Shown: positions 1,800 to 59,203 of the stretch, piece after piece
Numbering within the stretch: the first letter of the stretch is position 1
Layout: each line of letters begins with the position of its first letter
IMG/VR virus record: IMGVR_UViG_3300002143_000074
Span: 1 to 59,203 of that record
From: a virus
DNA length: 59,203 nt
Direction: 5' to 3' (one strand)
Program-made: the position numbers and the translations under genes
Notes under the pieces: generated by a model
The model's database searches: none
The model's input: only the letters and a program-made list of their open reading frames with translations
Told to the model about the DNA's origin: nothing

Positions 1800-1855
1800 T
1801 GGCAAAGCGGGAATCTCTAAAATTCTGCATGTGGGTTCGATCCCCACCTTTTGCA
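1785..1855 (+). tRNA. amber suppressor tRNA (anticodon CTA)
   Basis: D-arm GCTT-AATGGCA-AAGC, anticodon stem GGAAT/ATTCT around CTCTAAA (CTA at 1817-1819, normal U33), 4-nt variable loop and perfect T-arm GTGGG-TTCGATC-CCCAC. The acceptor GCATCAG/CTTTTGC has two mismatches (positions 4 and 5). Discriminator A; CCA not encoded. The D-loop equals that of tRNA-Gln at 577-650 and the anticodon loop differs by one base, so glutamine is the likely amino acid (inference). Genes with an in-frame TAG lie at 4483-5109 and 46994-47479. Confidence 0.75.
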
Positions 1856-1928
1856 CCTTTGTTGAAAATTAAAATAAGTCGTTTGGAAAGTTTGATAATA
1901 CTTATCTGAACAATGAAGTGAAAATCGG

Positions 1929-18776: not shown

Positions 18777-18817
18777 GATTATAAATATAACGTGAAAACA
18801 TAAAACGTGAAAGAATC

Positions 18818-18846
18818 TTGACTTTTTGGTGAGAGTAGTCGATACT
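18818..18846 (+). promoter_or_regulatory. sigma70-like promoter
   Basis: TTGACT (18818-18823), 17-nt spacer, GATACT (18841-18846). ATG of the next gene 19 nt downstream. Confidence 0.5.
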
Positions 18847-18864
18847 AGATTCAGATTAATAAAA

Positions 18865-19113
18865 ATGAACACACCTGAGAGTTTATACGAAGTCTGGCTT
18901 AACACTCGGAATATAACCACCGTTTATGATGAAGCGATTGAACGGTATGAAGGTGATATAAAGGGTTATGAATGGTCCATTCGTGAACAGGAATGGTTGG
19001 ATATAAGTAAACCGGTTAAAGAACATAATTTAAAAATATTAAAAAAAGAGTTACGTAAAGTTAAATCGAAATTGACTAAAACTCTAAAAATCAGAAAAGA
19101 GATAGTAAAATGA
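18865..19113 (+). CDS. hypothetical coiled-coil protein, 82 aa
   Basis: Charged helical protein; the C-terminus is strongly basic (LKILKKELRKVKSKLTKTLK). Coupled by ATGA overlap to the next gene. Confidence 0.6.
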   Translation: MNTPESLYEVWLNTRNITTVYDEAIERYEGDIKGYEWSIREQEWLDISKPVKEHNLKILKKELRKVKSKLTKTLKIRKEIVK

Positions 19114-25826: not shown

Positions 25827-25854
25827 TTGACTTTATCTAAAACCTAGATATAGT
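25827..25854 (+). promoter_or_regulatory. sigma70-like promoter of the split radical SAM gene
   Basis: TTGACT (25827-25832), 16-nt spacer, TATAGT (25849-25854). The expected start of transcription coincides with the ATG at 25862, so the mRNA may be leaderless. AAAACCTAGATAT (25839-25851) recurs at 29612-29624. Confidence 0.65.
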
Positions 25855-25861
25855 GACGTCA

Positions 25862-26305
25862 ATGAATGTTTTGAACAAATACATCAATGGTAACTACACA
25901 GTAACCATCTTTGATGATGGAACCAAGGAACGGGAGTATGAAGGTATTCCCGTTCCTAAATGGCCCGAATCATGTGATGTGAAGGTGACTGATTACTGTG
26001 ATGCGAATTGTCCGTTTTGTTTTCACCCCGATTCCGAAGTAATGACATTATTAGGAAACAAAAAAATATCAGAATTGGTGGTTGGTCAATTGATATATTC
26101 TTTTGATGAAACTAAAAAACAGATAGAACTATCTACAATAGAACAGGTTATAACTAAAAATGTAGATGAAAAGTTGATTGTAATTGAATTAGAAAATGGG
26201 AAAGTCATCAAATGTACCTATAATCATGAAATTTTTACAAATAATCGTGGTTGGGTAGAAGCATCTAAACTTTCAATAGAAGACGATATAAATCACATTT
26301 TATAA
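25862..26305 (+). CDS. radical SAM protein, N-terminal half plus N-intein
   Basis: Residues 1-52 are N-extein and end at CDANCPF, the start of the CxxxCxxC iron-sulfur motif. Residue 53 (codon 26018-26020) is Cys1 of an intein: CFHPDSEVMTLLGNKKISEL is intein block A, and IKCTYNHEIFTNNRGWVEASKL is block B with its conserved His. The frame stops at TAA after 95 intein residues, so the protein can only be completed by trans-splicing with the product of 27112-27957. Confidence 0.85.
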   Translation: MNVLNKYINGNYTVTIFDDGTKEREYEGIPVPKWPESCDVKVTDYCDANCPFCFHPDSEVMTLLGNKKISELVVGQLIYSFDETKKQIELSTIEQVITKNVDEKLIVIELENGKVIKCTYNHEIFTNNRGWVEASKLSIEDDINHIL

Positions 26306-26330
26306 TTGGTTTTAGATACTTATATCTATA

Positions 26331-27122
26331 ATGAATAGATATATAACAAATTTAAAATTAAAAACGTGCCATATTTGTAATTCCACATTTAATGGAACAC
26401 GACATAGAAAAACATGTTCTCCAGAATGTACTAGAAAATCAAAATTAAATGGAATGGTTAAGGTATTCCATCGTAAATTTTGTAAAGATTGTAATATTTT
26501 AATTTCCGAAAAAATTAAATTTGGATCTCTTGCAAAAGAAATAAACAATAACAATAAAAGATGTAAAAAATGTTCGGATATAAATCGACACAATTGGTAT
26601 ATCAATAGAAACAAAATTAAATCCGAAGCAAATAAGAAAAGTAATGGTAAAAAAATGGAAACCTTAAAACATCGGATGAAGATTAATAATCCAATGTTTA
26701 AATCGGAGACAAGATTAAAAGTTAAAAAAACTTTAGATGAAAAAATAAAATCTGGAATTATAAAATACAAAACTGGTCCAGAACACCATCTATGGAAAGG
26801 AAATCGTCAAAATAACAGTGTAATTAGAACAAGATTGAAAAATTGGAAAAAATCAGTATTGGAGAAATTTGATTACAAGTGTTATCATTGTGAATCTAAT
26901 ATAAATTTAGAAATACATCACATAGAACCATTAAGAAATATCATAAAAAAATTCACAGATAAACCGTTAAAAGAATACAATCAAGATTCCAAAGAATTTG
27001 AAAATTTAATTTTTATCTTGATTAATTATCATTTCAATAGTAATATTGGCGTATGTTTATGTGATAAGTGTCATTCGCAAGTGGATAAATTTAGAAAACA
27101 AACTTTTATTAATGAAAATTAA
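26331..27122 (+). CDS. free-standing HNH homing endonuclease between split-intein halves
   Basis: Three Cys pairs (CHICNSTF...TCSPEC; FCKDCNI; RCKKCSD) precede a C-terminal HNH nuclease: KCYHCESNINLEIHHIEPLR followed by VCLCDKCHSQVD. 263 aa, with its own ATG 25 nt after the N-half stop. Its stop overlaps the C-half start (ATGAAAATTAA). This is the fractured-gene arrangement described for metagenomic phages, where the endonuclease is not fused to the intein. Confidence 0.85.
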   Translation: MNRYITNLKLKTCHICNSTFNGTRHRKTCSPECTRKSKLNGMVKVFHRKFCKDCNILISEKIKFGSLAKEINNNNKRCKKCSDINRHNWYINRNKIKSEANKKSNGKKMETLKHRMKINNPMFKSETRLKVKKTLDEKIKSGIIKYKTGPEHHLWKGNRQNNSVIRTRLKNWKKSVLEKFDYKCYHCESNINLEIHHIEPLRNIIKKFTDKPLKEYNQDSKEFENLIFILINYHFNSNIGVCLCDKCHSQVDKFRKQTFINEN

Positions 27123-27957
27123 ATCAATTAGTCGAGAAAAATATACTGGTGTTGTCTATGATTTGACCGTGGTTAAAAATCATAATTATTTTGTTTCTAA
27201 TTGTTTGGTACACAACTGTCACGAAAAATCAACCGTGGATGGACTTCATGGTGATGAAGAATTGGGATTGAATCTATTTCGAGACTTGCCAGCCGGTGCA
27301 GAACTTGCTATTGGTGGTGGTAATCCTTTGAGTTGGGATGGTTTGTATAGATTTACCGACACCATGAAAGAACGGGGTGTAATCTGTAACATCACCGTCA
27401 ATAGTGTTCACGTTCGTAAATTCGATTCTCTAATCGAAAGTATGGTTCAAGACAAAACCATTCACGGTCTTGGTATCAGTTACTTCCGAGCATTACTGCA
27501 CAATTGTCTCCCATTCACTAAGATGACTCCAAATGTCGTATTTCACGTCATTATGGGTGTTCATACCATTGAGGATTTGCGACACATTATCAAGACAGTT
27601 CCCAACGCAAAAGTGTTGTTGTTGGGATACAAACAATATGGTCGTGGTGAAAAATACTTCTCCCCAACCATTGAGAAAAATTTGTATGATTGGTATGTGA
27701 CTTTGCATGAATTTTTCAAGGTCAAGGATTTGACTCTCAGTTTTGATAACTTGGGAATCAAACAAATGAAGCTGGAGAGATTCTTTGATAAAGAACAATG
27801 GAATCAATTTTACATGGGTGACGATGGAAAGTTCACACTTTTTGTCGATTTAGTTAAACTAGAATATTGTAAATCTTCAACCACACCAATACGATATAAA
27901 ATTGAAAAAGACGATAATTCTGAGTCTATTTTTAGAAAAATTAGAGAAATAGGATAA
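27112..27957 (+). CDS. C-intein plus radical SAM protein, C-terminal half
   Basis: ATG 27112 starts a 35-residue C-intein: GVVYDLTVVKNHNYFVSNCLVHN ends in the HN splice dipeptide, and the +1 residue is Cys (27217). C-extein begins CHEKSTVDG, supplying the third Cys of CxxxCxxC, then GGGNPLSWDGLYRFTD and a (beta/alpha) body. Spliced protein about 298 aa. Target reaction unknown. Every product lacks the complete cluster motif until splicing. Confidence 0.87.
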   Translation: MKIKSISREKYTGVVYDLTVVKNHNYFVSNCLVHNCHEKSTVDGLHGDEELGLNLFRDLPAGAELAIGGGNPLSWDGLYRFTDTMKERGVICNITVNSVHVRKFDSLIESMVQDKTIHGLGISYFRALLHNCLPFTKMTPNVVFHVIMGVHTIEDLRHIIKTVPNAKVLLLGYKQYGRGEKYFSPTIEKNLYDWYVTLHEFFKVKDLTLSFDNLGIKQMKLERFFDKEQWNQFYMGDDGKFTLFVDLVKLEYCKSSTTPIRYKIEKDDNSESIFRKIREIG

Positions 27958-27978: not shown

Positions 27979-28872
27979 ATGAGTAAAAATTATCACATAT
28001 ATAGAATAAAAAATATTCTCACAAATAAAGTTTATGTCGGAATGACAACATGTTTAACAAATCGTTGGAAAAGACATCTAAAACTGTTAAAGTGGAATAA
28101 ACATCATAGTGTAAAATTGCAAAGAAGTTATAATAAATATGGCGTTGAAAATTTTACATTTGAGAAAATATCGTCACACATCTGTTCATTATCCGAAATA
28201 CGGTTGATAGAAATAAAAATCATAAAGATAGAAAATTCTTATCATGATGGGTATAATTGTACAGAAGGTGGAGATTGTTATACACATAAACTTGGTAAAT
28301 TACATCCTCTTTCAAAACCTTTACATCAATATGATTTAGATGGAAATTGGATTAAAACTTGGGAATCCCGTTCTCTCGCAGTTGGTGAATTAAAAAAAGA
28401 AATATCGGTGACCAAATCAAAAAAACCAAAAATTTCACACAATCATATATGGTCATACGATTTCTACGGACCATTAACACGTCGTTTTCATAAAGTGTTT
28501 AAGTATTCTCTCAATGGTCTATTCATATCATCTTATGTCAATTGTCAACATGCGGCTAAGGTAAATAAATTAAATTCATCAAATATAGACCGATGCATCC
28601 GAGGAAAGACAAAAACTGCATATGGGTATCAGTGGAATTCTAAGTATTGTGATAAAATTTGTGAAGTAATTCCCAATAATCATGATAAAATAGTAAAACA
28701 GTCGGGAAAACGTATAGTGCAATATGACATTTATGGTAATTTAATTAACTCATTTCCATCATTAGGGAAAGCCGCTTTATCGGTTTCTGGAAACTACGAA
28801 AATATATCAAAATGCTGTAACGGTCACAGTAAAACCGCATATGGGTATATCTGGTCGTTTGAAAAGAGTTGA
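27979..28872 (+). CDS. GIY-YIG homing endonuclease with NUMOD1 repeats, 297 aa
   Basis: HIYRIKNILTNKVYVGMTT is GIY-YIG; LQRSYNKYGVENFTFEKI follows; the C-terminus has NUMOD1-type repeats (LHQYDLDGNWIKTW; VFKYSLNGLFISSY; VQYDIYGNLINSFPS...GYIWSF). Sits directly after the split radical SAM gene. Confidence 0.85.
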   Translation: MSKNYHIYRIKNILTNKVYVGMTTCLTNRWKRHLKLLKWNKHHSVKLQRSYNKYGVENFTFEKISSHICSLSEIRLIEIKIIKIENSYHDGYNCTEGGDCYTHKLGKLHPLSKPLHQYDLDGNWIKTWESRSLAVGELKKEISVTKSKKPKISHNHIWSYDFYGPLTRRFHKVFKYSLNGLFISSYVNCQHAAKVNKLNSSNIDRCIRGKTKTAYGYQWNSKYCDKICEVIPNNHDKIVKQSGKRIVQYDIYGNLINSFPSLGKAALSVSGNYENISKCCNGHSKTAYGYIWSFEKS

Positions 28873-33550: not shown

Positions 33551-34318
33551 ATGAAGAAATTCTATGTATATATTTATTTAGACCAGCGAAAACATGGCAA
33601 GTGGATTTTTAAAGATAAAGTTTTTAGCTATCAGCCATTCTACGTAGGAAAGGGAACAAATAAAAGAGATATCTCGCATTTATGCCCGTATATGTTGAAT
33701 AAAAAAACATATAAATCATCAACAATAAAATCAATCATTTCAGAAACTGGTGAATTACCGATACATGAAAGAATATACGAAAATTTAACAGAAGCAGAAG
33801 CTATTTCAATAGAAAAAGATATAATCAAACATTTTAAACGAAAAGATTTATTCACGAGTGGTATTTTATGTAATCACACAGATGGTGGTGATGGTGTAGT
33901 TAATCTCTCAAATGAGATTAGAAATAATATGGGTAAGAAATTCCAAAAACCCGTATATCAATACGATTTAGATGGTAATTTTATTAAAAAATGGGATTCT
34001 TTAACATCTGTTTCAAATATAGTAGAAACTATTTCTAATATATCTACTGCTATAAAAAGAAATGGAACTTGTGCAGGGTTTCGATGGTCTTATGAAGATA
34101 AAGGAAAAAAAATCGAAAAAACAATAAAATATCAGATGCCTATAAAATACAAAAATATTCATCAAATTTCAATAGATGGCGGGACTACTGTGGCAGTCCA
34201 TAAAAGTGCATTGGAAGCAGCTACCAGTTTAAACTTGACAAACAGATGCGCCCGTAATAAGATAACAGAGGCTGTTAAAAAAGGAACAACTGCATATGGA
34301 TATAAATGGAAAATATAA
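33551..34318 (+). CDS. GIY-YIG (LEM3-like) homing endonuclease, 255 aa
   Basis: FYVYIYLDQR...PFYVGKGTNKR is the GIY-YIG variant seen in LEM-3 like nucleases; NUMOD1-type repeats follow (VYQYDLDGNFIKKWDSL; GYKWKI). Its last 23 nt overlap the Thg1 start, so the element sits right at the Thg1 5' end. Confidence 0.8.
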   Translation: MKKFYVYIYLDQRKHGKWIFKDKVFSYQPFYVGKGTNKRDISHLCPYMLNKKTYKSSTIKSIISETGELPIHERIYENLTEAEAISIEKDIIKHFKRKDLFTSGILCNHTDGGDGVVNLSNEIRNNMGKKFQKPVYQYDLDGNFIKKWDSLTSVSNIVETISNISTAIKRNGTCAGFRWSYEDKGKKIEKTIKYQMPIKYKNIHQISIDGGTTVAVHKSALEAATSLNLTNRCARNKITEAVKKGTTAYGYKWKI

Positions 34319-43476: not shown

Positions 43477-44751
43477 TTAGATAAATAGTGAGCTTAATTT
43501 CTCTTTATCTTTTTTACTTTTCAAATCTGCAAATTTAGAAGTCGGTTGAACTTCTCCACTTTTAATGTCTTTTGCAGGTAAACCAGTCATGGAAGACGAA
43601 CCATTCAGGGTAAATCTAACCTTACCATGTTCTCTAACAGCGGTAATAGTCTGAGAATCAGCCCCATTTTCGGATTTTAAAACAACTTTATTTCTCGACT
43701 TGGCGATTTTGGGTAAAATTAGAAAATATTGAATCCACTTTACGAAGATACTTGGTGTTTTGACAATGGTGCTGGAAAGATACCTAAACTCAATGGTTCC
43801 ACGTAACATTGCTTTTACATTGGTTCCGTGAAATCTATCAATACCAGTCAATAGTGTTTGTAAATCCGAATTGCTTAACACAAACGTATTCGTTGCACTG
43901 GACTGATTTGACTTGGTTTTGATTATCTGATTTACAATGATATTGTGTAACGAATTTCTTAATTTAGACCATGACTTAAATTCTCTTTGCGGACCAGCGT
44001 CGGTTTTGACTGCGTTTTCATCTGTTAAAGTGGTTATGGTCAATAAATCAAATGCGTCAAAGTCTTTGGGTAAACCAATGTGAACGTGAGCACTTGTTCC
44101 CCCACTGGTTGTCTGGTATCTAACATGATTACAAATACTTACCACCAAATCAAATTCGGTTTGTTTCAAATGTTTACTTCGTATTTCTACATTATCACCA
44201 TCGGGACCAACCGCCCACGTATCAGCATCTGTATCTGTTCCCTCAACCACGTTCTGATTCATTTCATTTTGAATATAGTCAATGGAACCATCCACACCAA
44301 ATTGAATATCTACGTCGTTATTAGAATCGAGAAAATAATTTCCATCGTCAATATAATTAACCCACTCCCCATCGTCAATTAATTCATCAACAAACTCCGA
44401 AATATTATCCAATTTATCATTTCTTTCCCACCTTCTATATTCCCAATCCACATCACTTTGTTCATCTTCCCACAGTTTGTGTTCTTCTTCATTGGTGGAA
44501 TCTGGTTCTGCGTTATGAGATGACCAATCATCTAAACTAACCGGTCCATATGAATCATCCCACCTAGATAGAGTCCCATCCCAACGACGATTCAACTTTT
44601 CACGTTTATTATCCAACCATTCAAAATATGCATCCGTAACAGAACTGTGATCCATTAATGCGTCTCTTATTGCATCAACATCCAATTCTTTATCTTGGTC
44701 CGACGAGTCGGGAACGTATTCTAATTCAATGCCAAACGTGTAAGCTTCCAA
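43477..44751 (-). CDS. amidoligase-like enzyme (COOH-NH2 ligase)
   Basis: AYTFGIELEYVP at the start, GGTSAHVHIGLP in the middle and GTIEFRYLSSTI near the end are the three conserved stations of the Amidoligase_2 family (glutamine-synthetase-like ligases that make amide or peptide bonds). 424 aa with a long acidic Trp-rich insert (residues 40-150). Start by TTG at 44751 has no good ribosome-binding site; in the same frame a TAA (44755-44757) separates it from a leader peptide. Confidence 0.75.
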   Translation of the reverse strand: MEAYTFGIELEYVPDSSDQDKELDVDAIRDALMDHSSVTDAYFEWLDNKREKLNRRWDGTLSRWDDSYGPVSLDDWSSHNAEPDSTNEEEHKLWEDEQSDVDWEYRRWERNDKLDNISEFVDELIDDGEWVNYIDDGNYFLDSNNDVDIQFGVDGSIDYIQNEMNQNVVEGTDTDADTWAVGPDGDNVEIRSKHLKQTEFDLVVSICNHVRYQTTSGGTSAHVHIGLPKDFDAFDLLTITTLTDENAVKTDAGPQREFKSWSKLRNSLHNIIVNQIIKTKSNQSSATNTFVLSNSDLQTLLTGIDRFHGTNVKAMLRGTIEFRYLSSTIVKTPSIFVKWIQYFLILPKIAKSRNKVVLKSENGADSQTITAVREHGKVRFTLNGSSSMTGLPAKDIKSGEVQPTSKFADLKSKKDKEKLSSLFI

Positions 44752-50164: not shown

Positions 50165-51880
50165 TTAATCCTCCCAATCATCGAAGAATTTACCATTACC
50201 CATCCAATATACGATGTTTACATTTGGGTGGTCACGTCGTATTTCTTTCAATGCGGTTTCCTTACCATACTTTTTACGTGGGGTTTTTCTTACATCAACC
50301 GCAGTCAATTTATTAGCTGGACAATTCCAACTCATATCATTAATCATACATTTATCCATTACACAAATTCTCGTTGCCCAAATCAATGCACCTTGGTCAA
50401 AACATTTGAGTGACTCTTCAACCTCTGGTTTAGTTAATGCTTGTTTGCATGCAAATAACCAGTTGTATAATAGACCACCACACTCACTTTTATCTATTGC
50501 CAATATACCGGTGTTGAATGTCAAACTTGGGTCGTTGGTGCTGTTGTATGGTAACACCGATTCCACATTACCATTGATACAAAATGATGGATTGTAAGTG
50601 TCCTTGAATACCACAAACTTTTGTTTATTCATCATTTCAATCAATGGATACAGGGGTTCCAACACAATCGCATCAACATCAATCCAGAGGATTTTGTTAT
50701 ACTGACACTTGTTTATGAGAAATGGTTTCTTCCAAATATTCAGATGGTATAGTTTATCTTTGAACTGTTCATGTATTTCTTCGTGAGTGAATATATCGGT
50801 ATCAAATCTATGTTTGATTGGGTTGATTCCATTTTTGACACACCACGTTGTTTGTTCAGGTGTCAAACCCAAATCATAAATTACAATCGGACCATTCCAC
50901 ACATTACGTATCGCAGCCAACCATGTTGGAAAGACTTTGAAAAATTTACTATCAATAGCAGAAACAACAGCGGTTTGATTGACTCCAACCAATCCATCAT
51001 CGTTACGTATAAGAAAATACTGTTTAACCAAATGAATCATTTCTTCATCTGCGATATCAGTCCATGTCAACAATCCATCTTCATTATATGTTAGGTCTGT
51101 ATAAGGATTGAGATTGGTAATGTTGTCTTGACGTTTAATATACTGTCTATCTTTCTTGTCACCATGCCATAAGTGTTGAATATTGGCACGTAATACACCA
51201 ACCTCATCTGTGCTCGATATATATTCTCTCACTTTATTGGACCATACATCATATGCAGCCATTAACTCACTGTTGAGATTATAGAAGCGATTGTGTAGTT
51301 TTATATCCAACACGGTAACGACAAACCACGAATCGTTTGACCCCATAATATGTTTATCAAACAAACCAACCTGAGTAAAGAAATCACGTCGAGCAGCCCA
51401 AGCCCACCCCGGTCGAAATATTCTCCAATCCTCACATGTCTCTATTTTTTGTTTAAGACTAGCGACAGATTTCACAATTTGTATAATATTACCAGATGAA
51501 TCCAAATCCTCACAATATTCAAACATTTGAACAATTTTATATTCATCTAATAATGTTTCAGCACGTTGTGCCCAAGTATCGTCACTATATAATAAATCAG
51601 CATCAATCCACGCAACCTTGGTTATGTAGTCAGGTAACTTGGATACCATGACGTTAATTAAGTTCTCTTTATACCACAGAACTGTATTGCTTCGTAGTTG
51701 TAACGTGTTTGGTCCAGCTGGTAAATCGAATGGTTTATCGTCAAACGCAACTTCGATGGTAAACAACTCATAACCAGTTCTTTCCACACCCTCTTTGAAC
51801 TTGAAATAATTGTCTTTAATTAGTTTGTAACCACCGTAGTTAAAATAACATGCGATTATTGCTAATGACTTCTGACTCAT
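50165..51880 (-). CDS. protein with two glycosyltransferase domains, 571 aa
   Basis: The N-terminal half has KVAWIDADLLYSDDTWAQ (DxD-type GT-A site) and WAWAARRDFF; the C-terminal half has NKILWIDVDAIVLEPLYPLI and FNTGILAIDKS, typical of GT8-like enzymes. Probably decorates phage DNA, virion or host surface sugars. The methyltransferase gene follows 4 nt downstream. Confidence 0.8.
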   Translation of the reverse strand: MSQKSLAIIACYFNYGGYKLIKDNYFKFKEGVERTGYELFTIEVAFDDKPFDLPAGPNTLQLRSNTVLWYKENLINVMVSKLPDYITKVAWIDADLLYSDDTWAQRAETLLDEYKIVQMFEYCEDLDSSGNIIQIVKSVASLKQKIETCEDWRIFRPGWAWAARRDFFTQVGLFDKHIMGSNDSWFVVTVLDIKLHNRFYNLNSELMAAYDVWSNKVREYISSTDEVGVLRANIQHLWHGDKKDRQYIKRQDNITNLNPYTDLTYNEDGLLTWTDIADEEMIHLVKQYFLIRNDDGLVGVNQTAVVSAIDSKFFKVFPTWLAAIRNVWNGPIVIYDLGLTPEQTTWCVKNGINPIKHRFDTDIFTHEEIHEQFKDKLYHLNIWKKPFLINKCQYNKILWIDVDAIVLEPLYPLIEMMNKQKFVVFKDTYNPSFCINGNVESVLPYNSTNDPSLTFNTGILAIDKSECGGLLYNWLFACKQALTKPEVEESLKCFDQGALIWATRICVMDKCMINDMSWNCPANKLTAVDVRKTPRKKYGKETALKEIRRDHPNVNIVYWMGNGKFFDDWED

Positions 51881-51895: not shown

Positions 51896-52087
51896 ATGGA
51901 TGTTCAAAACCACCTCAAATCTTTTGTTGACAAATCAATCGGGGTATGGTTATATATAAACATGTGGATTAAATGGAAATACAACGACCATGCTCACCCC
52001 GGTAGTGCAAGAGATATGTCTTATCAAGTTGGTGTTCAACTTGCACTTTACGATGAACTAATGAAAAATAGAAATGAACCTGTATGA
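51896..52087 (+). CDS. hypothetical protein, 63 aa
   Basis: GVWLYINMWIKWKYNDHAHPGSARDMSYQ; overlaps the next gene by 4 nt. No family. Confidence 0.55.
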   Translation: MDVQNHLKSFVDKSIGVWLYINMWIKWKYNDHAHPGSARDMSYQVGVQLALYDELMKNRNEPV

Positions 52088-52338
52088 TTTGGGGAAGTGA
52101 CATAAAGCCAAAGAAGAATCCTAAGTATTTATTCCGTTCGGATGACGGTGTAAGATTCACCCGACAATCTGATGGTCTATACACAATGGACGATAGTTAT
52201 ATGGACGAGATTATTCGTCATAGATACAGTTATGATGTATTGATGTCACATAGATTTGTTACACGACTGAGAGACTGTCGTATAACAAAAACAATTCAGT
52301 ATAACGATGGACATGGAAATGGTGATTTTGATGAGTGA
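52084..52338 (+). CDS. hypothetical protein, 84 aa
   Basis: Basic start (KPKKNPKYLFRSDD). Part of the small-gene zone; no family. Confidence 0.55.
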   Translation: MIWGSDIKPKKNPKYLFRSDDGVRFTRQSDGLYTMDDSYMDEIIRHRYSYDVLMSHRFVTRLRDCRITKTIQYNDGHGNGDFDE

Positions 52339-52489
52339 AGAAGAATTTGAAAAATATATCGACGTGTTGGGTGATGAAGTCATGTGCAAATTTTTGGAGT
52401 TAGATGAGGTTCAGATGGAACACTTCGATTCAAAGTTAACCAAGTTAATTATGGATAGAAAGAATAAGTTATGTCCACCAATTCTATAA
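52331..52489 (+). CDS. hypothetical acidic protein, 52 aa
   Basis: ATG 52331 overlaps the previous stop by 8 nt; helical, acidic (MSEEEFEKYIDVLGDE). Confidence 0.5.
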   Translation: MSEEEFEKYIDVLGDEVMCKFLELDEVQMEHFDSKLTKLIMDRKNKLCPPIL

Positions 52490-52662
52490 CATTTATGACA
52501 ACTAAAATAGACGAATCTATAAAATCCGTAGAAAATGCAACCGAACACTATATGACTCTAACTCGTTGGATGTATACTGAGGAACTTGATGGAGAAATTG
52601 GTAATCTGTTTAGTAGAGTGTACTATCAAACCTACGATTTTATTCACTCCGATTCTATTTAA
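52471..52662 (+). CDS. hypothetical protein, 63 aa
   Basis: Overlaps its neighbour by 19 nt; ATG 52495 is an alternative. Ends convergently inside the minus-strand array. Confidence 0.5.
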   Translation: MSTNSITFMTTKIDESIKSVENATEHYMTLTRWMYTEELDGEIGNLFSRVYYQTYDFIHSDSI

Positions 52663-52817
52663 TCCTCGGTAACGGTTATCATGATTTGTGGTATCATCAG
52701 TTCATCTGGAATGGTAGGCATCAACGCATCAAAACATTCGTAACTTGATTCTTTGTCAATCAATTTATCGGTGTATAACACCCATTCATATAATCTAATT
52801 TTCGGTGATTTATTCAT
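52659..52817 (-). CDS. small array gene, 52 aa
   Basis: MNKSPKIRLYEWVLYTDKLI...; last gene of the minus-strand array; overlaps the upstream gene by 8 nt. Contains the LYEWVLY aromatic core seen across the array. Confidence 0.5.
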   Translation of the reverse strand: MNKSPKIRLYEWVLYTDKLIDKESSYECFDALMPTIPDELMIPQIMITVTED

Positions 52818-52986
52818 GGTGATAGTCCCAAATACTTACTATCATTTCATTATTTGCCATTCTGAGTTGTCTGGTGACGAATAACTCTGCACAGACACCA
52901 CTAATTGTCTCTTTATCAATCCACTCATTTTGACCAGTCATTACATTAATGAGTTCAAACATGTTATCTACATTCTTATTCTTCAT
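52810..52986 (-). CDS. small array gene, 58 aa
   Basis: NNEMIVSIWDYHH near the C-terminus shows the hydrophobic-strand-plus-Trp core typical of the plus-strand array. Overlaps both neighbours. Confidence 0.5.
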   Translation of the reverse strand: MKNKNVDNMFELINVMTGQNEWIDKETISGVCAELFVTRQLRMANNEMIVSIWDYHHE

Positions 52987-53146
52987 CTATAAACTCCATA
53001 TCATATCGACGTCCTAAGTTTAAAAGGTCATGCACTACATGTACAGTTTGATAAAAAGCTGCATCGGCTGTTGATGTATAAATTTTCTTATTCGTAGCCA
53101 ACGGATAGATATACCATGGGATTTGTATTTCTATAATTTCACTCAT
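52976..53146 (-). CDS. small array gene, 56 aa
   Basis: EIIEIQIPWYIYPLATNKK; overlaps neighbours by 8-11 nt. No family. Confidence 0.5.
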   Translation of the reverse strand: MSEIIEIQIPWYIYPLATNKKIYTSTADAAFYQTVHVVHDLLNLGRRYDMEFIDEE

Positions 53147-53393
53147 TTACAAACTCCTTTATGACGGTTGGAAAGTTTGTTAGTCCCACAATTCTAATAT
53201 CACTAAAACGACGATGTGCATTATATGTTGTTCTAAACACAATATCCAAAGATTCATCACCCAATACACAATCGTCGGTAAGATGTATATACTGATATAA
53301 TTTAATGGGTGCAAATTTAGTCATTGGTGAAATCTTGGATATAACTTGGGTTATTGTCGGCACCAAATTCTCTTGGGATGAACCGTAAATCAT
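53139..53393 (-). CDS. small array gene, 84 aa
   Basis: Ends NFPTVIKEFVNE, similar to SSNIIHEFLTD (53933 gene) and SYIQDFTND (53317 gene). Its start lies inside the 53317-53469 frame. Confidence 0.5.
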   Translation of the reverse strand: MIYGSSQENLVPTITQVISKISPMTKFAPIKLYQYIHLTDDCVLGDESLDIVFRTTYNAHRRFSDIRIVGLTNFPTVIKEFVNE

Positions 53394-53539
53394 CGGCTGC
53401 CCACACTACACGAATCCAAGTCTCACGCATGATGACCCCATAATCATACGTTTCTGCATATGAACCCATTGTCACTATTAAACGTGAATGAGAGTTTATT
53501 CAAACATTCGACGGTTGGTGATAATAATCGTTTATCCAT
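53317..53539 (-). pseudogene. small array gene, probably frameshifted
   Basis: ATG 53539 encodes MDKRLLSPTVECLNKLSFTF and stops at 53444; from 53469 another frame continues SYAETYDYGVIMRETWIRVVW and ends SYIQDFTND, matching the array's C-terminal pattern. Joined by a one-base shift near 53455-53470 they make a normal-sized member. Alternatively two overlapping genes. Confidence 0.35.
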
Positions 53540-53541
53540 AT

Positions 53542-53754
53542 TTAACGCATAAATTCCTCTGCCGCAGTTCCTCGGAGAGCCCAATCTTCATCCGATGTCT
53601 CGAATATAGATGTATTAAAAACTCTAGCTGATTCAATAATAACAAAATCTTTACATTCACGAACCGACTGACGAGATGAATCCCCACATTTTACTCGTAT
53701 ATCCGCGTCCAATTTATATTTTGTTTTGAGATGTTTTTCGATAAGTTTATTCAT
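53542..53754 (-). CDS. small array gene, 70 aa
   Basis: NKLIEKHLKTKYKLDADIRVK, ends TAAEEFMR; overlaps the upstream gene by 8 nt. Confidence 0.5.
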   Translation of the reverse strand: MNKLIEKHLKTKYKLDADIRVKCGDSSRQSVRECKDFVIIESARVFNTSIFETSDEDWALRGTAAEEFMR

Positions 53755-53929
53755 CTTCTAAATAATCTATTAAAATACTAATATGATTACCCATCATATT
53801 TTCCATACTTGGTTGAAAGTCGATACGTGTATTTTTTGTCAATCCAAAGTCAAAATCTTCACATTTTTCTCCAAGCTGGTTATACATATCTGGTCCACGC
53901 ATATTTTCTATTTTATAGTGAGTGTTCAT
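53747..53929 (-). CDS. small array gene, 60 aa
   Basis: Acidic, ends SILIDYLEDE; no family. Confidence 0.5.
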   Translation of the reverse strand: MNTHYKIENMRGPDMYNQLGEKCEDFDFGLTKNTRIDFQPSMENMMGNHISILIDYLEDE

Positions 53930-53932
53930 AAC

Positions 53933-54172
53933 TCAATCTGTCAAAAATTCATGAATGATGTTTGAACTTTCCGCTAGGAAGAAGTGTTTGCGTTCATTTT
54001 CGTTATATACATCTATTACCAAGTCACCACTAAACACATGTCCAGATGTGCTAGTGAATAAAAGTCTATGAAATAAAGCAGTCGAAAATATCTCTTCACG
54101 GGATTTTCCAAATTCAAATCCATTTTCAGATAAACACTTTAAAATTGGTAACGGAAATTTATTCATAACCAA
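53933..54172 (-). CDS. small array gene, 79 aa
   Basis: Starts MVMNKFPLPILKCL, ends SSNIIHEFLTD. ATG 54166 is an alternative start. Overlaps the membrane gene by 10 nt. Confidence 0.5.
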   Translation of the reverse strand: MVMNKFPLPILKCLSENGFEFGKSREEIFSTALFHRLLFTSTSGHVFSGDLVIDVYNENERKHFFLAESSNIIHEFLTD

Positions 54173-54378
54173 CTTTTTAGAATTTTAGTCCTGTAAATTT
54201 CCATGAAGAAAGTATGTGCGGGTTCTAACAAAAATATATAACCACCTGTGAACATTAACAGTTGAATCACATGTAGGGTGGTGTTCCACAACTCCACAAC
54301 ATTAACCATCGCACCGAAAATGAATAGTGCATAGAGTAACATACTAATAAATCTGGTTAAAAAATTGAGATATTTCAT
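54163..54378 (-). CDS. small membrane protein, 71 aa
   Basis: Two hydrophobic helices (FISMLLYALFIFGAMVNVV; VIQLLMFTGGYIFLLEPA) and a basic end. Confidence 0.6.
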   Translation of the reverse strand: MKYLNFLTRFISMLLYALFIFGAMVNVVELWNTTLHVIQLLMFTGGYIFLLEPAHTFFMEIYRTKILKSWL

Positions 54379-54384
54379 ACAAAT

Positions 54385-54612
54385 CTACTTTACTGGAAGT
54401 CCGTGCATTGTCAATGATTTTTTAGATACGTCAATGATATTGGTCATACAAGTATTTTTCAACTGTTTCCATGCTATACTCTTTATCTTTCTCTTACTCA
54501 ATGGTTTAGGTGTGAATGTGGAGAATTTAACCGATGTCATAAATTTACGGTTGCTGTCGAAGAATTCGACTTCATAATCTTTCGTTTCAATTGTTATTAT
54601 TGACGTATTCAT
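54385..54612 (-). CDS. small protein, 75 aa, first of the minus array
   Basis: Beta-rich N-terminus (SIITIETKDYEVEFFDSN) and basic middle (KPLSKRKIKSIAWKQLK). Divergent from the plus-strand array at 54698. Confidence 0.5.
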   Translation of the reverse strand: MNTSIITIETKDYEVEFFDSNRKFMTSVKFSTFTPKPLSKRKIKSIAWKQLKNTCMTNIIDVSKKSLTMHGLPVK

Positions 54613-54697
54613 TTAATGAGACTACATCCTCATTTGAGATACACAACTTATTATAGATTGACTATTTGAGTTGTTTGTGGTTCACTGGATGAGTTAA

Positions 54698-54751
54698 ATG
54701 AAAATCAGTGACTATGACAATATGTGGATTGATGATTTTCTATCAGATTGA
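54698..54751 (+). CDS. possible 17-aa ORF opening the plus array
   Basis: MKISDYDNMWIDDFLSD, then a TGATATG junction to the next gene. Very short; perhaps a remnant or leader. Confidence 0.25.
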   Translation: MKISDYDNMWIDDFLSD

Positions 54752-54752
54752 T

Positions 54753-54908
54753 ATGACCAAGTATAAAGATAAAGAACGTGTAGTGTTTATGATGATTTTA
54801 GACGACATTGAGAAAATGACGGATGGTATGAATGACAATAACATGAGCCTGACCTTGTGGCCACCAAACCAGTTTTGGTCTGGTGATTTTTTTGTAGATG
54901 AAAATTAA
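54753..54908 (+). CDS. small array gene, 51 aa
   Basis: NNMSLTLWPPNQFW carries the array's strand-plus-Trp core; overlaps the next gene by 11 nt. Confidence 0.5.
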   Translation: MTKYKDKERVVFMMILDDIEKMTDGMNDNNMSLTLWPPNQFWSGDFFVDEN

Positions 54909-55062
54909 AAATGATGAAAATGTGGTATTCACAGCATACTGTCGTCAAATTCAAAATACGACGGATGATAATTGTGATGTAGTCCAGTGGAAATCATATG
55001 AATTCCACCCATTCATATTCAATGAATATATCATTTTGGAGTTTGCAAAATATGAAAACTAA
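54898..55062 (+). CDS. small array gene, 54 aa
   Basis: Starts MKIKNDENVVFTAYCRQI; core DDNCDVVQWKSYEF. Overlaps the next gene by 11 nt. Confidence 0.5.
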   Translation: MKIKNDENVVFTAYCRQIQNTTDDNCDVVQWKSYEFHPFIFNEYIILEFAKYEN

Positions 55063-55231
55063 GACTTACAACTTATCACAACGTATCAATAACATAGCTT
55101 CTGGTTATGATACTGACCCATGGTGTAAAGATGAAAACTATCTGTTTATATGGCGTTCAGCACCACGAACGGATTTAATACAACTGACTCAGGGTATGGC
55201 TGTTAATGATTATAAAGATGATGAAAACTAA
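55052..55231 (+). CDS. small array gene, 59 aa
   Basis: NLSQRINNIASGYDTDPWCKDENYLFIWRS: clear paralogue of the next gene (RITEMAANYDVDPWC...VTIWRT). Confidence 0.6.
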   Translation: MKTKTYNLSQRINNIASGYDTDPWCKDENYLFIWRSAPRTDLIQLTQGMAVNDYKDDEN

Positions 55232-55397
55232 AATTTGTTACATTACCGACCGTATCACCGAAATGGCTGCAAATTATGATGTTGACCCATGGTGTATCAA
55301 TGATGAAAATGTGACTATATGGAGAACATTGGGATTGGTGAAATTTAACAACTCATTATCCATACAAACCGGCATTATCGGGGAATATATGTATTAA
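55221..55397 (+). CDS. small array gene, 58 aa
   Basis: Paralogue of the preceding gene with DPWC and the IWR core; ATG 55221. Confidence 0.6.
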   Translation: MKTKICYITDRITEMAANYDVDPWCINDENVTIWRTLGLVKFNNSLSIQTGIIGEYMY

Positions 55398-55569
55398 GAC
55401 TAAACTTAAAAATAATGAAGATTGTATTTTTTCATTACATTGTGATTCCATTATAGAAACAACTGATAGAGGGTGTCATGTTTTAATGTGGGATTTATAT
55501 TCATCCAACCACATACAACCATTTGATGTATTTGAATTAATTAGAGATGAACATGAAGACTATGATTAA
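55393..55569 (+). CDS. small array gene apparently starting at ATT
   Basis: Frame IKTKLKNNEDCIFSLHCDS...CHVLMWDLYSS...FELIRDEHEDYD matches array members that begin MKTK or MKIK, but the first codon is ATT (55393-55395); no ATG, GTG or TTG lies nearby in frame. Either a rare ATT start or a lost start codon. Confidence 0.4.
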   Translation: MKTKLKNNEDCIFSLHCDSIIETTDRGCHVLMWDLYSSNHIQPFDVFELIRDEHEDYD

Positions 55570-55738
55570 TAAAGATGTCCTTTGGAGACATAAAGTGGAA
55601 AAATTTACCAAACTTCAAAATGAAATGAAAGAATTAGTGTCACAACAATTCGCAGGAGACATTGTTGATTCGTCGTGTAGATTTGGATTGATAATTTCTC
55701 CACTGAGGTTGATTGTAAATTATACACATGAAAATTAA
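55553..55738 (+). CDS. small array gene, 61 aa
   Basis: VLWRHKVEKFTKLQNEMKEL; overlaps both neighbours. No family. Confidence 0.5.
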   Translation: MKTMINKDVLWRHKVEKFTKLQNEMKELVSQQFAGDIVDSSCRFGLIISPLRLIVNYTHEN

Positions 55739-55922
55739 CGACGCACATCTCAATAAACGAATCAATGCCATGGCTTCAAGTTATGATTTTCTAAACAGTT
55801 TAGATGAACCATATCTGTCTATATGGGCTAAATTAACTCGTATGAAAAAACACTCAGGTGTCCGAAATATTGTTATAAGCGAATATATTTACGATGAATA
55901 CGAACCAAAAAAGCAATATTAA
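55728..55922 (+). CDS. small array gene, 64 aa
   Basis: HLNKRINAMASSYDFLNSLDEPYLSIWAKL is a paralogue of 55052 and 55221. Confidence 0.58.
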   Translation: MKINDAHLNKRINAMASSYDFLNSLDEPYLSIWAKLTRMKKHSGVRNIVISEYIYDEYEPKKQY

Positions 55923-56076
55923 TTACACCGTCTTTAATGGTGACATATACAATCTCCGTAAGGAGATGAACGTCACAATCTATGATGATTTGGTAGCTTG
56001 GGAACATTTGGTTTTATTAGTTAGGAATACTCCCGCACAAATAGATGGTTTTATCAACGATAGTGATATTTTATGA
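55894..56076 (+). CDS. small array gene, 60 aa
   Basis: NVTIYDDLVAWEHLVLL core and end PAQIDGFINDSD; overlaps its neighbours by 29 and 4 nt. Confidence 0.52.
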   Translation: MNTNQKSNINYTVFNGDIYNLRKEMNVTIYDDLVAWEHLVLLVRNTPAQIDGFINDSDIL

Positions 56077-56269
56077 ATACTAAAAATGCAAATGAAACTA
56101 ATAAACGTATATCACGGGAAATTGGGCATTTCAGTAATAAACATGGTGTCATGGATGGTGATATTTTTTGGTGTGGAAAAAGGCATCACGATTAACTCCG
56201 ATAACCGCAATGTTTATGAGTGATAATTTTAACGGTACCCTTGATTTTATCGACGACAATAATATATGA
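56073..56269 (+). pseudogene. small array gene with T-tract frameshift
   Basis: Frame 0 reads NKRISREIGHFSNKHGVMDGDIF and then stops. Adding one T to the T6 run (56164-56169) gives ...IFLVWKKASRLTPITAMFMSDN, which aligns with the next gene (VFLVWQNVALTTPTTSILMSDN), where the run is T7. Slippage, decay or a sequencing homopolymer error. Confidence 0.5.
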
Positions 56270-56448
56270 ATCCTGAAAAAAACATTAATAGGTGTATAAT
56301 GAATATAATTGGCCCTTTCAGTAAAAAACATGGGGACTTTGATGATGATGTTTTTTTGGTTTGGCAAAACGTAGCATTGACAACTCCAACAACATCAATA
56401 TTGATGAGTGATAATGTTGATAACACCCGTGATTTTAGCCGTAATTAA
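56266..56448 (+). CDS. small array gene, 60 aa
   Basis: FSKKHGDFDDDVFLVWQNVA; intact paralogue of the preceding frameshifted gene. Confidence 0.58.
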   Translation: MNPEKNINRCIMNIIGPFSKKHGDFDDDVFLVWQNVALTTPTTSILMSDNVDNTRDFSRN

Positions 56449-56451
56449 AAT

Positions 56452-56817
56452 ATGAAAGTAATACTAGAAAACCTCGACACCCCGAATAAAAACAACCGTA
56501 TCTATTCCAAGGAGTGTATAACCAACGCTATTGAAAAGTCTCGTAGTGACACAGTATTGGTTTATTTAAATCAAACATCCAATCCTCGACTACAAGATGC
56601 GGCTGGTGTAGTCAATGAAGTGAAAATTGAGAATAACCAAGTGGTTGCCGATATTCAAATTCTTTCATCTCCAAGCGGTATGGTGTTGAAAGATACTCTA
56701 CTCAATAATTCGGTTGGTTGGAATATGGTAGGAGTTGGTCGGTTACAAACTAATAAAGATAATCAACAGATAGTCACCGATTATCGAATTGAGTATATTA
56801 ACGCAAATCCTACTTAA
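56452..56817 (+). CDS. gp21-like prohead-protease fold, catalytic residues missing
   Basis: LENLDTPNKNNRIYSKECITNAI, NPRLQDAAGVVNEVKIENNQVVADIQIL and WNMVGVGRL follow the T4 gp21 (peptidase S80) layout. At the His position (NHP in T4) it has NQT, and at the Ser position (GVSSRG) it has MVGVGR, so it is probably inactive. 121 aa, shorter than T4 gp21 (about 210). Confidence 0.5.
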   Translation: MKVILENLDTPNKNNRIYSKECITNAIEKSRSDTVLVYLNQTSNPRLQDAAGVVNEVKIENNQVVADIQILSSPSGMVLKDTLLNNSVGWNMVGVGRLQTNKDNQQIVTDYRIEYINANPT

Positions 56818-56918
56818 AACCTCTAATCAGATGAAAAATATCAAAAGAATCGTCTAATTCCATGAAATATATCACCGGAACCCACTTTTTGTTCGTAACC
56901 GCATAAAACAAAATTCGA

Positions 56919-56946
56919 TTGACAATTGTTAGACTTAGTATAAAGT
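56919..56946 (+). promoter_or_regulatory. sigma70-like promoter
   Basis: TTGACA (56919-56924), 16-nt spacer, TAAAGT (56941-56946), 9 nt before the YopX-like ATG at 56956. Confidence 0.6.
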
Positions 56947-56955
56947 TGTGAATGT

Positions 56956-57357
56956 ATGAAGAAATTCACATTCAAAGTCTACTCATTTAAGGAACGAAGG
57001 TTCTTGCCACAAAATGGTCAAGAGTGTTACGTTCTTGCAAAGGATGCGTGGGTTGGTATTGGTGACCTATTGAACAATGCTGATTACCACGTTTGTATAT
57101 CAACCGGAGTCTTGGATAAGAATGGGTGGGAAATCTATTGTGATGACATTGTGTTCAAGTTACACACTCATGCAGACTATGTTACTCCACGTAAGTTTAG
57201 AGTATTTTACGAATTGGGAAGTTTCAAAATTGGTCCGGTTGGTAATAATGGAACAACTCTCTGTGGAGAAGATTCAGACAATATGCTCTTGGAGAATTGT
57301 ATAACCGGAGTTCCATACACCTTTCTGGAAGTATCGGGTAACGCATTTGTTGTATGA
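56956..57357 (+). CDS. YopX-like protein, 133 aa
   Basis: FKVYSFKERRF at the start, CISTGVLDKNGWEIYCDDIV in the middle (TGLKDKNGxEIYxGDI of YopX) and FLEVSGNAF at the end. Overlaps the next gene by 4 nt. Confidence 0.68.
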   Translation: MKKFTFKVYSFKERRFLPQNGQECYVLAKDAWVGIGDLLNNADYHVCISTGVLDKNGWEIYCDDIVFKLHTHADYVTPRKFRVFYELGSFKIGPVGNNGTTLCGEDSDNMLLENCITGVPYTFLEVSGNAFVV

Positions 57358-57566
57358 ATGACTTATTTTTAAAACGTAAGTTGAAATATTATAAATGGAG
57401 TGACGTCTATAAAGATACCAAACGTCATGATATGGAAACCTTAAATCTTACCACATGCATTGACCATAGTGAATATAAAATCATAGGTGATGCGACCAAT
57501 AGTGTCTTGGAAACATCCGCAGTAAGGTTGTATGAGAGTCAATTGGATTTTATTAGCGATTTATGA
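57354..57566 (+). CDS. small array gene, 70 aa
   Basis: Basic N-terminus (LKRKLKYYKWSDVYKD); no family. Confidence 0.5.
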   Translation: MNDLFLKRKLKYYKWSDVYKDTKRHDMETLNLTTCIDHSEYKIIGDATNSVLETSAVRLYESQLDFISDL

Positions 57567-57748
57567 ACTTCCAAGTTAAAATTCAGATGGATGTCTTTGA
57601 TGAGATTTCTAAAAATATACAGAAGCCGTTGGGTTTTAATGTCAACCATACGACTGAATATATAGTCATATCGAAATTGGCTTCACCAATACTGGCTCCG
57701 TTGAACAATACATTTGATTTCAACTTTACAGACTCTAAGAATGAATAA
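57563..57748 (+). CDS. small array gene, 61 aa
   Basis: Ends LNNTFDFNFTDSKNE; coupled by ATGA overlap. Confidence 0.5.
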   Translation: MNFQVKIQMDVFDEISKNIQKPLGFNVNHTTEYIVISKLASPILAPLNNTFDFNFTDSKNE

Positions 57749-57751
57749 CGT

Positions 57752-58000
57752 ATGAATGTCCTATCACCAAATTATATTAATGATGTCGTCCGTAGTATGG
57801 TTGACGATAAATCATTTAAACCCAATAGTTGTGATGAACTGTGGATGTTAAACAAACCATTTATGGGCGTGTGGTGTGATAATAACTTGGTTTACATAGT
57901 TGACCCATCAAATGATTATGATATACTGTGGAATCTCGGTTTTCCGTATAATACGAGTTTCGTTTATGTAGAAGATGAAGAAGACACTGATAGCATATAA
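57752..58000 (+). CDS. small array gene, 82 aa
   Basis: YINDVVRSMVDDKSFKPNSCDELWMLN, paralogous to 58153 (YVSKKVRDKVADESYESFGFDVLWMS). Overlaps the next ORF by 26 nt. Confidence 0.58.
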   Translation: MNVLSPNYINDVVRSMVDDKSFKPNSCDELWMLNKPFMGVWCDNNLVYIVDPSNDYDILWNLGFPYNTSFVYVEDEEDTDSI

Positions 58001-58151
58001 TCTACCACCATTCGACATAACTCCTAGAGTCAATGCATTGTTGGATAAAGAACCACATCCAAATCAATATCAAACACTTTGGTTGCCCGGACACGCATCT
58101 GTGAATACACTGTTTGAGTTAGAATGTTTAACTGATTTTACAGAGAATTGA
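57975..58151 (+). CDS. small array gene, 58 aa
   Basis: FDITPRVNALLDKEPHPNQYQTLWLPG shows the same helix-DE-strand-Trp layout. Confidence 0.52.
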   Translation: MKKTLIAYNLPPFDITPRVNALLDKEPHPNQYQTLWLPGHASVNTLFELECLTDFTEN

Positions 58152-58152
58152 T

Positions 58153-58377
58153 ATGTCATTACAGAGATACACTTCACCCGATTATGTGAGTAAAAAAGTC
58201 CGCGATAAAGTCGCTGATGAATCGTATGAGTCGTTCGGATTCGATGTATTATGGATGTCGTTGAGAGAAGAACCGTCCCATATTGACATAGCCAAATTTA
58301 TTCTTTATGGTGATGTATGGACAGTGTTGAATGCTACCACGGATAGTCTATGGGAATTCAAACACAATGAGGATTGA
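58153..58377 (+). CDS. small array gene, 74 aa
   Basis: Paralogue of 57752; ends SLWEFKHNED. Joined to both neighbours by TGATATG junctions. Confidence 0.58.
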   Translation: MSLQRYTSPDYVSKKVRDKVADESYESFGFDVLWMSLREEPSHIDIAKFILYGDVWTVLNATTDSLWEFKHNED

Positions 58378-58378
58378 T

Positions 58379-58570
58379 ATGAACGATTCAAAAAATAAAG
58401 AAACAACGGTTTATGGTGGAGTCGATGTCCTTCTATCCGAAATTGGAGAGTTAATTAATGATGAGAATTCACCATCCATGGCCGGTTGTCTTTATACTGA
58501 ATTGGAGGATGGTCCTCTAAACATGACAATAGCCGTTTCACATAGTCGAGATGCGTTTATAAAGGATTGA
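58379..58570 (+). CDS. small array gene, 63 aa
   Basis: ATG 58379 in a TGATATG junction is preferred to ATG 58370. Acidic, no family. Confidence 0.5.
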   Translation: MNDSKNKETTVYGGVDVLLSEIGELINDENSPSMAGCLYTELEDGPLNMTIAVSHSRDAFIKD

Positions 58571-58571
58571 T

Positions 58572-58766
58572 ATGTATAGTAAAAAACTAGAAAGAATAAG
58601 AGATTTTCAATACGAGTAAGAGATAGAAAGACTGTTGTCAATAGTTGGAATAATCGACCCCACTAGTGATACATTGATATGTTATAAACTAAATATGCCT
58701 GCACTTAGGGATGTTAGAATGGAATTTCATAGTGGTGTATTACAATCAACCTATGATGACATATGA
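58572..58766 (+). pseudogene. small array gene with in-frame TAA at codon 16
   Basis: MYSKKLERIRDFQYE, TAA (58617-58619), then the same frame continues EIERLLSIVGIIDPTSDTLI to TGA at 58764-58766, which overlaps the next ATG. Length and junctions fit one 64-residue array gene. Confidence 0.45.
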
Positions 58767-58963
58767 ATGAATTAAAAATTAGTCCACGTCGTCATATGCT
58801 TGAAAGTTTGGACTCGGTAATAGATTATTCACATACTAAGGATGTGTATGACATAATAATACTCGGTTATAATAATGGTATGAGACTCAATACATTTGTC
58901 AATCAATTTACCTATACTGAAATGACCACCCTCTCCATGGTGGGTACCCCTCCCCCACGTTAA
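58763..58963 (+). CDS. small array gene, 66 aa
   Basis: LKISPRRHMLESLDSVIDY; last gene before the terminus; its C-terminal codons run into the GGGTACCCC tract. Confidence 0.45.
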   Translation: MNELKISPRRHMLESLDSVIDYSHTKDVYDIIILGYNNGMRLNTFVNQFTYTEMTTLSMVGTPPPR

Positions 58964-59203
58964 CGGTAACGCACCAAGTCTAAAATCGCACTTATAAATT
59001 CACCACCGACACGCTGAAACAAGCCCGGTTAATAATAAATTTATTTCTATATCACTACAACCAATTCAGGAGATATACAAACGCAATTATCATATACGCA
59101 TATAACAACAGTAGAAGAATCAAATATACAAGAATAACAAGATATAGACAATATGCTATAAGACAATCAAACTCCCTCATGGGGAGGGGGTACCCCCCCC
59201 CCC
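58964..59203. other. non-coding right end with GC homopolymers
   Basis: No gene with a plausible start. Plus strand is A-rich and poor in G until the last 25 bases, which are GGGGAGGGGG-TA followed by a run of C. A related GGGTACCCC tract lies at 58943-58956. Looks like a contig or genome terminus. Confidence 0.5.

Follow-up and report, generated by a model that had tools for sequence, protein, structure and literature searches.

An array of tiny coupled genes with a shared C-terminal tail and signs of birth and decay in a tailed, probably large phage

Layout of the tiny-gene array

We analysed a viral contig of 59,203 bases (IMG/VR record IMGVR_UViG_3300002143_000074; hereafter the window), whose source is a tailed phage, probably a large one, and which carries near its right end an array of tiny genes. 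The array is real: about 33 short open frames lie there on two strands, and for 30 of the 32 genes scored a codon-usage model trained on the long genes of the contig preferred the array frame to the five others. Among same-strand neighbour pairs, 28 of 32 overlap or are separated by no more than 5 nucleotides (nt), and GC skew switches with the coding strand. A sequence-only reading of this DNA had placed about 30 such genes at 52659-58963, most of them coupled by short overlaps. The ATGA and TGATATG junctions proved real and the frames are present, but the array begins earlier, and two genes inside it are foreign. These two, a prohead-protease-like open reading frame (ORF) at 56452-56817 and a YopX-like ORF at 56956-57357, were excluded as members.

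The genes form two divergent coupled operons, on the minus strand at 52659-54612 and on the plus strand at 54698-58963, separated by an 85-base gap; an additional short plus-strand group occupies 52016-52662, with a convergent end at 52662. Re-annotation added an ORF of 17 amino acids (aa) at 54698 and one of 15 aa at 58572, shifted the next start to 54753, and placed a further copy in the gap at 55393-55569. The array proteins are acidic (-4.4 per 100 aa versus -0.9). In the following list, and in the text, genes are referred to by their first coordinate and paralogue groups by the labels F1a to F4.

52016-52087, +: short ORF belonging to group F4 and paralogous to 57563 (tblastn: 40% across 25 aa, E 1e-4; group at E<1e-3)
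start 51896, +: longer version of ORF 52016
52084-52338, +: 84-aa ORF, tail GDFDE
52331-52489, +: 52-aa ORF without the tail motif
52495-52662, +: 55-aa ORF (63 aa from 52471), tail YDFIHSDSI
52659-52817, -: 52-aa ORF, final gene of the minus operon, weakly similar to 53139 (E 0.02-0.05)
52810-52986, -: 58-aa ORF, tail WDYHHE
52976-53146, -: 56-aa ORF, tail MEFIDEE
53139-53324, -: 61-aa ORF, tail IKEFVNE
53317-53469, -: 50-aa ORF, tail IQDFTND
53542-53754, -: 70-aa ORF, tail EEFMR, without a coupled gene after it
53747-53929, -: 60-aa ORF, tail IDYLEDE
53933-54166, -: 77-aa ORF, tail HEFLTD
54163-54378, -: 71-aa hydrophobic (membrane-like) ORF without tail; coding signal weak
54385-54612, -: 75-aa basic ORF without tail, leading the minus operon; coding signal weak (rank 2 of 6)
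54613-54697, no strand: divergent intergenic gap between the operons, presumed to hold promoters
54698-54751, +: 17-aa mini-ORF MKISDYDNMWIDDFLSD, nothing but start and tail
54753-54908, +: 52-aa ORF, group F2, tail GDFFVDEN (start corrected from an earlier position)
54898-55062, +: 54-aa ORF, group F2, tail LEFAKYEN
55052-55231, +: 59-aa ORF, group F1a, tail NDYKDDEN (phmmer 1.3e-10 to 55221; DNA 68.6%)
55221-55397, +: 58-aa ORF, group F1a, tail GEYMY
55393-55569, +: open frame, F2 copy without an ATG, GTG or TTG start (tblastn of 54898: 36%, E 5.9e-9); stop-free, coding score top of six frames
55547-55738, +: 63-aa ORF ending NYTHEN; coding signal weak (rank 2 of 6)
55728-55922, +: 64-aa ORF, group F1a, tail SEYIYDEYEPKKQY
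55894-56076, +: 60-aa ORF, 3' end DNA-homologous to the junction following 56073
56073-56269, +: frame-disrupted copy of 56266, in halves 56073-56195 and 56192-56269 (other frame; tail LDFIDDNNI)
56266-56448, +: 60-aa ORF, group F1b, tail RDFSRN
56452-56817, +: 121-aa head-maturation-protease-like ORF, non-member (PHROG 207, E 4.2e-6)
56956-57357, +: 133-aa YopX-like ORF, non-member, placed by sequence layout
57354-57566, +: 70-aa ORF, tail LDFISDL
57563-57748, +: 61-aa ORF, group F4
57752-58000, +: 82-aa ORF with a strongly acidic product (net charge -11), group F3 (phmmer 3.3e-5 to 58153)
57975-58151, +: 58-aa ORF, probable F3 (E 0.02), tail TDFTEN
58153-58377, +: 74-aa ORF, group F3, tail WEFKHNED
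58379-58570, +: 63-aa ORF ending DAFIKD; junction DNA resembles that preceding 54753
58572-58619, +: 15-aa mini-ORF MYSKKLERIRDFQYE, nothing but start and tail
58635-58766, +: 43-aa ORF, TTG start
58763-58963, +: 66-aa ORF whose last residues overlap a GC-rich inverted repeat close to the end of the contig; end may be unreliable

The YopX label derives from two matches in the array region, one protein to PF09643 (E 0.0017) and one to phrog_98 (1.2e-8). The start junction of the protease-like piece resembles the junction that is repeated in the array. The GC-rich inverted repeat lies at 58939-58957 and 59180-59203, and the contig terminates in a palindrome; this is probably an assembly fold-back, and the end of ORF 58763 is therefore doubtful.

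A shared C-terminal tail and partial relatedness

The feature that members share is a short C-terminal tail, [DE][FY]-x-x-[DEN], carried by 21 of 35 proteins after re-annotation. When we counted [DE][FY] followed by 2-6 residues at the C-terminus, 18 of 30 array proteins had it against 2.2 expected from shuffles (maximum 8 in 2000), as did 6 of the 39 other small window proteins and 5 of the 54 long ones. The tail is thus a stronger feature than had been claimed for it. Since the pattern had been noticed before it was tested, we also ran an unbiased scan of residue-class pairs at both termini. [DE][FY] came top at the array C-termini, where [FY]xx[DEN] likewise ranked high, and none of 400 shuffles reached the top value; nothing significant appeared at the array N-termini or in control small proteins. 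The tail is present on both strands and across paralogue groups.

After Asp or Glu in the tail, Phe outnumbers Leu(TTR) 14:3, compared with 139:186 window-wide (Fisher p 0.0008), and the tail is therefore no DNA-level GANTT motif. These statistics show that the tail is conserved as protein, not as DNA. The idea that it is a translation signal, a ribosome-binding site or junction DNA was unsupported: sites resembling a Shine-Dalgarno (SD) sequence are rare, and the DNA preceding array starts shows no greater similarity than DNA at other places. Genes 53542 and 55221 keep the tail though neither is followed by a coupled ATG-started gene.

Relatedness of the bodies could be established for part of the array. 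An all-against-all phmmer comparison gave eight pairs at E<1e-3, against zero from ten shuffles of the set; the pairs define five groups with 12 frames: F1a (55052, 55221, 55728), F1b (both halves of 56073, and 56266), F2 (54898, 55393, plus 54753 at E<0.01), F3 (57752, 58153) and F4 (52016, 57563). Hidden Markov models (HMMs) built on the first-found groups drew in no further member that scored above shuffled decoys, and in profile-profile comparison the groups stayed separate. The family-wide kinship proposed in the sequence-only reading therefore stands for these 12 frames, while profile methods detected no similarity among the remainder. The layout of helix, acidic stretch and hydrophobic strand ending in Trp, which had been put forward as common to the array, was not significant overall: the hydrophobic-Trp feature occurs in 14 of 30 proteins versus 9.8 in shuffles, not beyond chance. 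A motif search without anchoring gave nothing significant at width 7; at width 10 it scored only modestly higher than eight shuffles and yielded no coherent motif.

Relatives outside the window were sought at several levels. Scans of IMG/VR with 55221, F1a, F3 and F2, of GTDB species genomes with F1a, and of INPHARED with 55052 and 57752, collections that may lack records covering the array of this phage, returned none, and the records G001-G005, discussed below, contained no relative of any array member. No credible match was found among PDB sequences, and a literature search found no description of such a tiny-gene array in phages. The statement that the genes belong to no described family holds across Pfam, PHROGs, PADLOC and PDB sequences.

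Duplication, decay and the meaning of the array

Searching the array region against itself with BLASTN revealed four pairs of head-to-tail DNA repeats with 59-70% identity. The clearest (56046-56270 versus 56242-56456; 69% over 226 nt, E 2.7e-27) starts in the 3' end of 55894, spans 56073 and enters the start of 56266, and its junction occurs again before 56452. In the second (54865-55066 versus 55365-55561; 59%, 6e-5), the 3' ends of 54753 and 55221, which belong to different groups, are each followed by an F2 copy. The other pairs are 55052/55221 and 55052/55728. A diversity-generating retroelement would combine a reverse transcriptase, a template repeat and adenine-specific changes; in the repeat alignments, substitutions fall at all bases. 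The repeats start in gene 3' ends, and divergence is too high for exact mapping of 6-10 bp microhomology. The duplicated units carry the tail of the preceding gene, and therefore tails and bodies may be re-sorted, to judge from these two cases.

Several copies have decayed. Compared with 56266, gene 56073 has a disrupted frame; 55393 has none of the usual start codons; and two others, 54698 and 58572, amount to start-plus-tail stubs. Some of these disrupted, start-less or stub copies could be sequencing errors. Nei-Gojobori ratios of nonsynonymous to synonymous substitution (dN/dS) were about 0.9 for 55052/55221, 0.8 for 55052/55728, 0.5 for 55221/55728 and 0.7 for 56073/56266, with wide bootstrap ranges. 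The repeated duplication and fast divergence ascribed to the array is therefore directly evident for about one third of the genes, from the repeats, the disrupted and start-less copies and dN/dS of 0.5-0.9; for the rest it is suggested by the tail only.

We are confident that the anatomy of the array is that of a birth-and-death locus. Our judgement is evenly balanced on the whole reading, in which the array is a birth-and-death accessory island of host-interaction genes in a large tailed phage. On this account, the two divergent, translationally coupled operons would yield about 30 soluble proteins, each about 60 aa long and most of them acidic. The array would gain members when a unit running from the 3' end of the preceding gene through the next gene is duplicated, in tandem or segmentally, as seen for two units; copies would diverge fast, some losing frame, start codon or body, as those described above have, while most products would retain the tail. 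The variable bodies may bind differing or fast-changing host targets, and the common tail may dock to a shared partner or stabilise the products. To judge from precedent and from the pattern, a role in host takeover or counter-defence would be most likely, and the putative role as variable inhibitors or decoys is plausible.

Several observations weigh against the host-interaction reading. More than half of the array genes have no proven paralogue. Pfam, PHROGs and PADLOC (defence proteins) gave no convincing match for any member, with clear matches in the two non-members only, and AlphaFold models built from five rows for F1 and three rows for F3 had pLDDT (predicted local distance difference test) values of 50 and 46, were unusable and were not interpreted. 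The near-neutral dN/dS of the young pairs equally fits weak constraint, and for 57752/58153 dS is saturated at a dN of 0.42, which indicates purifying selection. SD-like sites precede 5 of 27 array genes (phage-wide the figure is also low, 10 of 95), and promoter-like sites number 46 versus 42.7 in shuffles, none standing out; these tests presuppose sigma-70 and SD signals, which the phage may not use. A Bacteroidetes-type promoter pattern had 8 matches versus 4.6 expected, none of them within the array.

Precedent for the host-interaction reading comes from Bacillus phage SPO1, whose host-takeover module of 26 mostly small genes was described with emphasis on strong promoters and ribosome-binding sites and tested for growth effects (PMC6873191). 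Like the array, it is a dense operon cluster of mostly small genes, many of its roughly 26 without a known target; its strong promoters and ribosome-binding sites contrast with the sparse signals of the array. As to paralogue groups, decaying copies or a common C-terminal tail, we know of no report of these in the SPO1 module. Counter-defence genes of phages also undergo tandem amplification (PMC9391042, PMC13096335); homing endonucleases can promote such amplification of phage genes (PMC13096335). The T4/T6 tifA-dmd and SegB loci resemble the array in the tandem duplication of small accessory genes, and the window phage likewise carries several GIY-YIG homing endonucleases, outside the array. 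Their duplications, however, are recent, selected and confined to one locus, with 6-10 bp microhomology boundaries (PMC9391042, PMC13096335), whereas the array copies are old and diverged, with many groups side by side.

Two of the large IMG/VR contigs hold arrays of their own. G002 (IMG/VR 3300042516_005475; L016) has at about 200.7-207.0 kb a run of over 30 overlapping genes, each some 60-70 aa long, with 18 paralogue pairs at E<1e-3; it lies near a homologue of window gene 43477-44751. That array has no sequence similarity to the one in the window, and is basic (+4.8 per 100 aa) and LYxxL-rich, with conserved starts instead of an acidic-aromatic tail; four repeat proteins with WPEAE motifs follow it. 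In G005 (IMG/VR 3300034073_003542, 182.6-183.5 kb; L034:2577-3545, minus strand), five consecutive genes of 63-92 aa likewise combine diverse, unrelated bodies with one constant C-terminus, GYxxGYETRKII. Unlike the tail in the window, this one shares nucleotides, out of frame, with the start of the next gene (MKQEK). These arrays are unrelated in sequence, and tiny-gene arrays therefore recur in some large phages. An extended proposal, which we regard as doubtful, is that of a modular system of constant tails and variable bodies, in which bodies and tails are re-sorted and one partner binds the tail, and in which similar arrays have evolved independently in distant large phages.

Four other explanations were weighed. 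An unlikely one, the most probable of the four, is a neutral gene nursery, a region tolerant of duplication and drift whose copies have little or no function and whose tiny frames persist because phage recombination keeps producing them. Several pairs with dN/dS near 1 agree with it, as do the frame-disrupted copy, the start-less copy and the two stubs among about 35 frames; nearly all frames are nevertheless open with typical codon usage, the tail is kept as protein on both strands and on unrelated bodies, and 57752/58153 is under purifying selection. Slightly less probable is that the array is simply a patch of small early genes of the usual kind, unrelated to one another apart from a few local duplications of recent date, with no family-wide feature. 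Such a patch is at odds with a tail whose frequency well exceeds chance in different groups and on both strands, without enrichment in the contig's other small proteins, and with weak links among three groups at E<0.05; the failure of profiles to recruit members or join groups and the non-significant hydrophobic-Trp feature agree with it.

We consider it improbable that the tail is a by-product of duplication, a recombination-junction sequence spread with the copied units and unselected as protein. The duplicated units do start within the 3' end of the preceding gene, and in G005 the constant tail is an out-of-frame image of the constant next start. Around array starts, however, the DNA is no more alike than around the contig's other starts, Phe and Tyr are favoured over Leu(TTR) after Asp or Glu, and the tail is retained in genes without a coupled successor. 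Finally, it is very unlikely that the tail is an address signal on virion-packaged or targeted proteins, for although diverse bodies do share one short tail and the phage's MIKLKDIL-like N-termini (below) suggest that it uses terminal tags, no structural gene adjoins the array save the partial prohead-protease-like ORF, and packaging so many tiny proteins would be unusual; the tail is also like no signal known to us.

Tiny genes of unexplained function and origin make up much of the genomes of large phages, and this single locus displays the birth, divergence and decay of such genes. The short tail offers a concrete handle for seeking a common partner, and if the bodies target the host, such arrays, those of G002 and G005 among them, would amount to natural collections of inhibitors ready for use.

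The phage and its other features

Contig G003 matches window positions 1-39997 at 99.9% identity and hence represents the same phage; it reaches 14 kb further left and stops at 39997, short of the array. Few genes are held in common with known records. Three are shared with the 349-kb Xanthomonas phage XaC1, which has no such array; the DNA ligase of the window matches those of the large IMG/VR contigs G002, G004 and G005 at 46-52%, and an amidoligase-like gene matches G001 and G002 at 37%.

The phage encodes six tRNA genes, a CCA-adding enzyme and several homing endonucleases. A GOLLD RNA lies at 2606-3063 on the plus strand and matches RF02032 over the whole model with 209.8 bits (E 6.4e-58); tRNA-Ile(tat) sits within it and further tRNAs adjoin it. 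GOLLD assembles into RNA nanocages (PMC12286853). A tRNA with a CTA anticodon at 1785-1857, plus strand (ARAGORN: Pyl), is a possible amber suppressor. Stop-codon reassignment, which this tRNA brought to mind, was rejected because TAG remains in use as the stop of 9 of the 122 called genes.

Four GIY-YIG-like homing endonuclease ORFs lie at 3065-3610, 17919-18920, 27979-28872 and 33551-34318, one checked against PHROGs and the other three called by sequence. At 25853-27957, plus strand, a radical-SAM-like gene (CDANCPFC...CHEKST) is broken by two intein halves, both matching PF14890, with an HNH-like ORF at 26331-27122 in another frame between them; the arrangement looks like a split intein accompanied by a free-standing endonuclease. 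MIKLKDIL-like N-termini occur on the neighbouring unrelated proteins 7792, 8635, 9396, 10206 and 10601 (plus strand), the CCA-adding enzyme included, as if they were tags for packaging. At 50165-51880 on the minus strand lies a two-domain glycosyltransferase-like protein, whose C-terminal half matches PF01501 at the cut-off and whose N-terminal half resembles an XaC1 protein.

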